A stretch of DNA of 64,000 nt from Panacibacter ginsenosidivorans. GTDB taxonomy: Bacteria > Bacteroidota > Bacteroidia > Chitinophagales > Chitinophagaceae. Positions 59,792 to 61,676 of the stretch are shown here, in pieces. The stretch spans positions 248,001 to 312,000 of the forward strand of contig NZ_CP042435.1 of NCBI RefSeq assembly GCF_007971225.1, written 5' to 3'. The translations under genes were made by a program, and so were the position numbers. The number at the start of each line of letters is the position of its first letter. Positions within the stretch are counted from its first letter, which is position 1. Under the pieces are notes generated by a model, which was given only the letters and a program-made list of their open reading frames with translations, had not been told where the DNA came from and did no database searches.

Positions 59792-59808
59792 GTTGCATGA
59801 CCTTTTGC

Positions 59809-60628
59809 TATCGGTTGGTGTCTATAATCTCAGCCGTTCCGGCGGGTGGAGACACACCGCCGGTAGTACGCAAAATGTACAACCAGGTCAACCTGTAACA
59901 CTGCTACGCTCTATCGGCTGGTGTCCCCACCTGCCGAAATGTTACACTAAATCCTTATCTTAAAGTATGAACATCTTTCACAGAAGGCAGGGTCAAAATG
60001 CATACAGATACCTGCTATTTCTATACCCAAACTATTCAGGGTTTCAAACACCTGCTTTCAGATGATTATTTAAAGCTTTTTCTATCGGTTGGGGTGTGTC
60101 TATAATCTCAGCCGTTCCGGCGGGTGGAGACACACCGCCGGTAGTACGCAAAATGTACAACCAGGTCAACCTGTAACACTGCTACGCTCTATCGGCTGGT
60201 GTCCCCACCTGCTGAAATGTTACACTAAATCCTCATCTTAAAGTATGAACATCTTTCACAGAAGGCAGGGTCAAATGCATACAGATACCTGCTATTTCTA
60301 TACTCAAACTATTCAGGATTTCAAACACCTGCTTTCAGATGATTATTTAAAGCTTTTGCTATCGGTTGGTGTCTATAATCTCAGCCGTTCCGGCGGGTGG
60401 AGACACACCGCCGGTAGTACGCAAAATGTACAACCAGGTCAACCTGTAACACTGCTACGCTCTATCGGCTGGTGTCCCCACCTGCCGAAATGTTACACTA
60501 AATCCTTATCTTAAAGTATGAACATCTTTCACAGAAGGCAGGGTCAAATGCATACAGATACCTGCTATTTCTATACCCAAACTATTCAGGATTTCAAACA
60601 CCTGCTTTCAGATGATTATTTAAAGCTT
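59809..60628 (+). repeat. triplicated 5' region of the RAYT transposase gene
   Basis: Three head-to-tail units of 274, 277 and about 269 bp. Each holds about 160 bp of upstream DNA with two hairpins, followed by the first ~110 bp of the transposase gene (start codons at 59967, 60245 and 60518). Only the third runs on into the full gene. Hairpins in each unit: an arm pair CCGGCGG/CCGCCGG (59839-59863 in unit 1) and CGGCTGGTG...CCACCTGCCG (59915-59936). Copies differ by only a few bases, so the event is recent. Confidence 0.88.
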
Positions 60629-61060
60629 ATCGTCATCCGCTCACTTCAGTATCTTGTTAATAATAAACTGGTAAAAATTTATGGTTATGTAATTATGCCT
60701 AACCACATTCATTTGTTATGGTGCATGCTCCGGCAAAATGGCAATGAAAGTCCCGCAGAAAGTTTCTCTAAGTTTACAGCACATCAGTTCAAAAAGTATC
60801 TGGCAAAAGACAAAACATTCCTTATCCAATATAAAAGTAAAAAAGAAGATAGAGATTATCAATTCTGGAAAAGAGACCCGCTTGCAGTTCCAATCAGTAC
60901 TGATAATATATTAATTGATAAACTGCACTACATTCATCATAACCCTGTAAAACCTAAATGGGCTTTATGTAAGCTGCCTGAAGAATATAAATGGAGTAGC
61001 GCTAAATTTTATGCATCAGGAGAAGATGAATATAAAATATTGACGCATTTCAGAGAATAA
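60518..61060 (+). CDS. REP-associated tyrosine transposase (RAYT, IS200-like Y1 family)
   Basis: 180 residues. GYVIMPNHIHLLW (57-68) holds the HUH metal-binding pair His63/His65; LHYIHHNPVKPKW (136-148) holds the predicted nucleophile Tyr138; the tail EEYKWSSAKFY is typical of RAYTs. Proteins of this family nick and join single-stranded DNA at small hairpins (REPs), acting on DNA rather than encoding passenger genes. GC-rich hairpins flank the gene on both sides. The start at 60518 lies in the third repeat unit; a start at Met11 is also possible. Confidence 0.92.
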   Translation: MNIFHRRQGQMHTDTCYFYTQTIQDFKHLLSDDYLKLIVIRSLQYLVNNKLVKIYGYVIMPNHIHLLWCMLRQNGNESPAESFSKFTAHQFKKYLAKDKTFLIQYKSKKEDRDYQFWKRDPLAVPISTDNILIDKLHYIHHNPVKPKWALCKLPEEYKWSSAKFYASGEDEYKILTHFRE

Positions 61061-61063
61061 TTT

Positions 61064-61084
61064 CGGTTGGTGGGACACCAACCG
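61064..61084. repeat. REP-type hairpin after the transposase
   Basis: A perfect stem, CGGTTGGTG-GGA-CACCAACCG, 3 bp after the stop codon and at the junction with the duplicated transposase segment. Its CGGTTGGTG arm recurs at the start of each upstream tandem unit (units 1 and 3; unit 2 reads CGGTTGGGGTG), suggesting it is the cognate REP. Confidence 0.8.
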
Positions 61085-61091
61085 ACAGAAA

Positions 61092-61304
61092 AATGAAAGT
61101 CCCGCAGAAAGTTTCTCTGAGTTTACAGCACATCAGTTCAAAAAGTATCTGGCAAAAGACAAAACACTCCTTATTCAATATAAAAGTAAAAAAGAAGATA
61201 GAGATTATCAATTCTGGAAAAGAGACCCGCTTGCAGTTCCAGTCAGTCCTGATAATATATTAATTGATAAACTGCACTACATTCATCATAACCCTGTAAA
61301 ACCT
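61092..61304 (+). pseudogene. duplicated internal fragment of the RAYT gene
   Basis: 213 bp nearly identical to 60743-60955 of the transposase gene, with a handful of substitutions and no indel. It lacks both the HUH motif and the C-terminus. It abuts the REP hairpin on one side and chromosomal sequence at 61305 on the other. Confidence 0.85.
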
Positions 61305-61323: not shown

Positions 61324-61343
61324 GTTGCGTCGCACACTTGTAC
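61324..61343. repeat. array-type hairpin element, isolated left arm (e22 left)
   Basis: GTTGCGTCGCACACTTGTAC, 20 bp from the end of the transposase fragment. Same family as the permease junction elements. Confidence 0.8.
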
Positions 61344-61371
61344 TGCAACAATAATATTCTGCATTCATCAC

Positions 61372-61477
61372 TGTACGCTTTCGATACATTACTGTACGCA
61401 AATGCAACAAAACAAAAAGGCATGTTTTATATAAAGCTCTCATTATCATATTTTTTTATCTTGGTATGTTAATAGTA
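61372..61477 (+). promoter_or_regulatory. predicted activator sites and sigma54-type promoter of the regulator gene, site D
   Basis: Two dyads, TGTACGCTTTCGATACA (61372-61388) and TGTACGCAAATGCAACA (61393-61409), 4 bp apart. 52 bp further on the plus strand is TGGTATGTTAATAGTA (61462-61477), a fair -24/-12 match. This suggests the regulator controls its own gene, about 200 bp downstream. The dyads also sit 51 bp from GCGCCA on the other side, so a minus-strand role is not excluded. Confidence 0.6.
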
Positions 61478-61590
61478 AATAAGTTTGTACGCAGGAGTAT
61501 GTTTTGAAATAATGCACACAAACACAACCGGATTGCGAAAGTTGAATATTGGTATAAAGCAAATTCATGCGGTGCTGCGTAAAGAACAAA

Positions 61591-61612
61591 GCGTACAGGA
61601 GTGCGACGCAAC
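61591..61612. repeat. array-type hairpin element, isolated right arm (e22 right)
   Basis: GCGTACAGGAGTGCGACGCA followed by AC, in the leader of the response regulator gene. Its left partner is 250 bp upstream, with site D between them. Confidence 0.78.
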
Positions 61613-61676
61613 GAAAGCTGAATAATGTAATGAAGACAGGCTACAAAAAATAAAAAGTATAAATTAGAGCACGCAT

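Follow-up and report, generated by a model that had tools for sequence, protein, structure and literature searches.

How does a REP-associated tyrosine transposase (RAYT) gene come to be bordered on both sides by repeated pieces of itself? The question bears on how REPs multiply and on whether RAYTs are mobile or domesticated, both of which have stood since RAYTs were described. In the 64,000-nt stretch of the Panacibacter ginsenosidivorans genome analysed here (the window), the locus has the REP > gene < REP layout of a RAYT unit, and partial tandem duplications lie on either flank (Table 1). Upstream lie the three near-identical direct repeats already recognized in the preliminary description: units of ~275 bp with a 260-nt core, spaced by 274 and 277 nt and 97-99% identical over ~275 bp (E 1e-132 to 1e-142), a likeness far beyond chance. 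Each begins a few bases before the CTAT-CGG foot and joins a block of three REPs (one half REP, one inverted and one direct) to the first 81 nt of the RAYT gene, that is, to 27 codons counted from the ATG at 60548 and not to the ~37 given earlier; this start is backed by homologues, and in unit 1 the ATG further upstream, at 60518, is frame-shifted. Two positions (an added A and a substitution) separate unit 1 from unit 3, and unit 2 is set apart by its 4-nt insertion and a few substitutions. That insertion (window 60086-60100, TTGGTGTC to TTGGGGTGTGTC) matches the complement of the adjoining inverted REP arm, GACACACC, and looks like a template switch across a quasi-palindrome.

Table 1. Coordinates of the RAYT locus within the window.
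Feature	Position	Strand	Detail
Unit 1	59802-60075	+	REP block, 5' UTR and first 81 nt of RAYT; ATG at 59998
Unit 2	60076-60352	+	As unit 1, with a 4-nt insertion in the first REP; ATG at 60275
Unit 3	60353-60628	+	REP block and 5' end of the intact RAYT gene
REP1	60359-60374	+	5' half only, CTAT-CGGTTGGTGTC; foot where units join
REP2	60390-60417	-	Inverted, CCGGCGGGTGGAGACACACCGCCGGTAG
REP3	60462-60487	+	Direct, CTAT-CGGCTGGTGTCCCCACCTGCCG
Intact RAYT / TnpA-REP gene	60548-61060	+	170 aa; HUH (H53, H55), Tyr128
Inverted REP at stop codon, with foot	61064-61091	-	REP 61064-61084; 7-nt foot ACAGAAA, 61085-61091
Copy of RAYT nt 196-408	61092-61304	+	Directly abuts the REP foot
LE foot hairpin of the RAYT unit			CTTTTGCTATCGG

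On the other side, the intact gene ends at an inverted REP with a perfect 9-bp stem and a GGA loop, followed, as first described, by a 213-nt internal duplicate that is 98% identical to positions 60743-60955 at a spacing of 349 nt. Because 4 of its 5 differences from the gene are amino-acid changing, this piece reads as a drifting relic. The 1-2% divergence of the repeats, on which the earlier reading of very recent activity rests, marks them as young but gives no date.

The gene product carries HUH-Y1 motifs with the Y..NP signature, and H53, H55, Y128, N132 and P133 are invariant in 16 homologues. Profile matches fall under their cut-offs, both for NCBIfam NF047646 (REP-associated tyrosine transposase; 69.1 bits, E 3.6e-19, cut-off 80) and for Pfam Y1_Tnp (17.7 bits, cut-off 23), and a phmmer search of PDB sequences found no relative. 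The best match of its AlphaFold2 model (mean pLDDT 95) among all PDB entries is 4er8 (E 1.7e-8), a TnpA-REP bound to a REP hairpin. Inverted REPs of a kind found elsewhere in the genome flank the gene, and its identity as a RAYT with cognate REPs is supported by the combination of the HUH and tyrosine motifs, the structural match to 4er8 and these further REPs. One intact RAYT copy of this kind is present in the genome; more RAYT relatives lie at genome positions 2716548, 2858651 and 3798137.

REPs were counted with a covariance model in this genome, a single complete 5.53-Mb contig. The preliminary description had staked its reading on the presence of further REPs of this type, and the search returned about 30 matches with E < 0.05, in roughly 13 places; the type, with the consensus T-run, CTAT, CGGTTGGTG-TCCN-CACCAACCG, AAA, is established in the genome in low number and forms strong hairpins (DNA fold z -4.4). 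Several dispersed REPs are simple inverted pairs (e.g., genome 2598931-2599013), and the three-REP block recurs at 1291747, 1291958, 1292234, 1293829 and 2713812, and partly at 781860, with RAYT coding sequence absent from all of these block copies. The earlier suggestion of a live view of REP/BIME formation is therefore borne out only in part: the RAYT-carrying units are confined to the locus, and the dispersed REPs and BIMEs examined lack gene pieces. The three-REP block also forms a RAYT-free tandem array at genome 1291747-1292378 (L009 2750-3370), where the joins between units once more fall immediately 5' of the T-run and CTATCGG foot and the inner ends differ. Next to another block copy stands a broken RAYT of a different subfamily (L010 3700-4300, genome 2714318-2714762).

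At the locus itself, the left join reads aaag^CTTTTGCTAT-CGG and the right join CCG-ACAGAAA^AATGAAAG, both 7 nt outside the REP 5' arm. A close RAYT is present in 68 of 294 genomes of the family, and we surveyed about 100 related RAYT loci, one genome per species, reading the joins individually. Pieces of the locus's own RAYT are repeated in the flank at 14 or more of these loci (in most cases a 3' end placed downstream or a 5' end placed upstream), and the joint anchored at a REP foot was seen again in about ten related bacteria. Join distances were obtained by matching to the nearest REP arm, with arms picked per locus by eye, a procedure that supersedes a hairpin-based count, which misses half REPs. 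Of the non-homologous tandem joins, 11 were scored, and every one falls 4-9 nt outside the arm of a REP, an interval that takes in 0.7-7% of all positions in these loci (Fisher p 2.5e-9 for the joins against that background); this distance is narrow across different REP types. Joins with at least 22 nt of homology were kept apart as possible products of REP x REP recombination or multi-copy periods, and L040, a tandem join with no REP near, is an exception. That the joins point outwards is in part a matter of geometry, since any copy containing a REP together with gene sequence can only break beyond the REP. Microhomology amounts to 0-2 nt at the joins of L206, L165, L208 and L177, to 3 nt (CTT) at the window's left join and to 7 nt at L156. 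Two loci show the arrangement in array form: contig 50 of G245 mirrors the window with three tandem RAYT 3' ends plus REP, and G001, of the same genus as the window, has 14 tandem ~57-bp REP units before its RAYT, each array with one foot and two inner breakpoints. The pattern that needs explanation is an outer breakpoint that is fixed and an inner one that varies.

The same endpoints recur where whole units are compared. Most of the related RAYT genes have one direct REP in front and one inverted REP just after or overlapping the stop codon, an arrangement shared by the RAYT of G001, which is about 73% identical in protein to that of the window; it sits at another chromosomal site, and the conserved response-regulator neighbourhood is there without RAYT. 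Pairs of RAYTs within single genomes (G046, G218, G245, G221 and, more weakly, G083) are alike from foot to foot only, over a shared segment of about 620-650 bp whose ends lie 5-10 nt beyond the REP arms, coinciding with the position of the tandem joins. Because copies in the same genome share only REP, gene and REP, with identical ends and unrelated flanks, the REP-RAYT-REP unit appears mobile. Values of dN/dS between such copies are mostly 0.05-0.25, and the RAYT proteins are therefore under constraint. At L177, positions 1476-1772 hold a REP-RAYT-REP copy with both ends retained and nt 117-465 deleted internally. This is the anatomy of a MITE, and such a copy may connect RAYT units with gene-less REP pairs. 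Searches for a clean empty site in G001, in the genus of G046 and with joined flanks against the surveyed loci found none; one spanning match, L188.1, was set aside, as it appears to be a right-end REP resembling the left flank. The surrounding locus (L188, contig 8 of G218) is a dense maze of RAYT copies, REPs and short repeats around two RAYT units that are 99% identical.

TnpA-REP is known to cut single-stranded DNA near a REP, to keep the 5'-phosphotyrosine and to hand this end to an unrelated 3'-OH (PMC8266576). Because the joins are anchored exactly at REP feet, we favour the transposase acting on its own hairpins, one of the two origins first suggested for the locus, and the RAYT probably cuts the hairpins that flank it. 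More specifically, we lean slightly towards a model in which foot-anchored duplications arise when RAYT nicks the DNA at a REP foot and the strand is repaired or extended from that nick. The enzyme would cut single-stranded DNA a few bases to the 5' side of the REP stem; the flank would then end in a 3'-OH, and the REP foot would carry a 5'-phosphotyrosine. For the steps after the nick, we infer that the flank 3'-OH would be extended through the REP into the RAYT gene and that the new 3' end would attack the phosphotyrosine, creating a tandem copy in which the REP foot always sets one breakpoint and the end point of synthesis sets the other. On the top strand, such a reaction would multiply the RAYT 5' end, as in the three units of the window; on the bottom strand it would multiply the 3' part, of which the 213-bp piece may be a product truncated later. 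Nicking, extension and rejoining would account for the duplications on both sides in the window, for the short G001 arrays and for the joins without homology.

The main rival to this RAYT-nick model is host replication slippage, with RAYT a bystander: a newly copied REP would fold back on the nascent strand, and the 3' end just past the hairpin would detach and re-anneal through a few bases to gene DNA that has already been copied. Hairpins as strong as these REPs suit such a process, a nascent hairpin would likewise put breaks just beyond the REP, and the microhomologies at L156 and at the window's left join are of the kind expected. The nearly homology-free joins of the four loci named above fit it less naturally, however, as do the narrow distance kept across REP types and the coincidence of joins with the ends of apparently mobile units, so that we regard slippage as a credible but less probable origin. 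Nested self-insertion, by which whole units entered older gene copies and left the 5' pieces and the 213-bp piece as halves of an interrupted gene, would agree with the 5' pieces lying to the left and the internal piece to the right of the intact unit, and complete units do occur near each other in relatives. It is nevertheless unlikely, because the two kinds of piece do not meet (nt 84-195 are missing); in addition, the pieces are one-sided in most relatives (e.g., L206, L156, L208 and L165), and the window has one right-hand remnant against two left-hand units. An assembly artefact or chance is highly improbable given a single complete contig, units told apart by distinct differences and comparable structures in other assemblies.

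If nicking by RAYT is extended to the family, one may tentatively suppose, with rather less confidence than for the window, that group 5 RAYTs of Bacteroidota are active and self-mobile, and that a nick 4-9 nt outside the REP feet primes a short, rolling-circle-like copy whose rejoining to the foot yields REP arrays, gene-end duplications and possibly REPINs. A family with many foot-anchored partial copies provides natural maps of likely cleavage sites, and the recurrence of the joint across relatives makes repeats built by RAYT a testable idea, open to a simple reporter assay.

Among known systems, the closest is the REPtron, a RAYT/TnpA-REP gene with inverted flanking REPs, and specifically that of subclass 2.6, equivalent to RAYT group 5 and defined by NH[LIV]H, YIH[QN]NP, an SS tail and a foot without GT[A/G]G (PMC6006769). 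By motif alone, the window RAYT falls in this subclass of Bacteroidota: it shares the length of about 170-180 aa, NHIH, YIHHNP (with H replacing Q/N), the double serine (as WSS), atypical REPs with the foot CTAT, which lacks GT[A/G]G, and extra REP copies in the genome. Published REPtrons reportedly do not move as a unit, whereas the relatives surveyed here hold identical-ended units with unrelated flanks within single genomes, and, unlike in published REPtrons, the gene ends are here duplicated at REP feet. BIME-2 and the clustered REPs of proteobacteria likewise consist of tandem REP units including flanking DNA (PMC3733652, PMC8266576), but BIME-2 is made of alternating REPs and non-coding linkers, whereas the window units hold the 81-nt transposase coding piece and are joined at a position fixed relative to the REP foot. 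With IS200/IS605 elements (IS608, ISDra2) the RAYT unit shares the HUH-Y1 fold, subterminal hairpins and a 5' guide tetranucleotide; unlike the asymmetric LE and RE of those elements, its ends are inverted REPs, and among solved structures its protein is closest to TnpA-REP rather than to IS608. In the relatives G046, G218, G245 and G221, copies with constant ends occupy unrelated sites, a trait of insertion sequences; the genome analysed here has only one intact copy.

Adjoining the 213-bp RAYT piece, at window 61324-61660, is a dispersed ~80-nt repeat family, GTAAAGAACAAAGCGTACAGGAGTGCGACGCAAC, with an inverted arm at 61324-61343; it numbers about 40 or more copies in each of two species of the genus.
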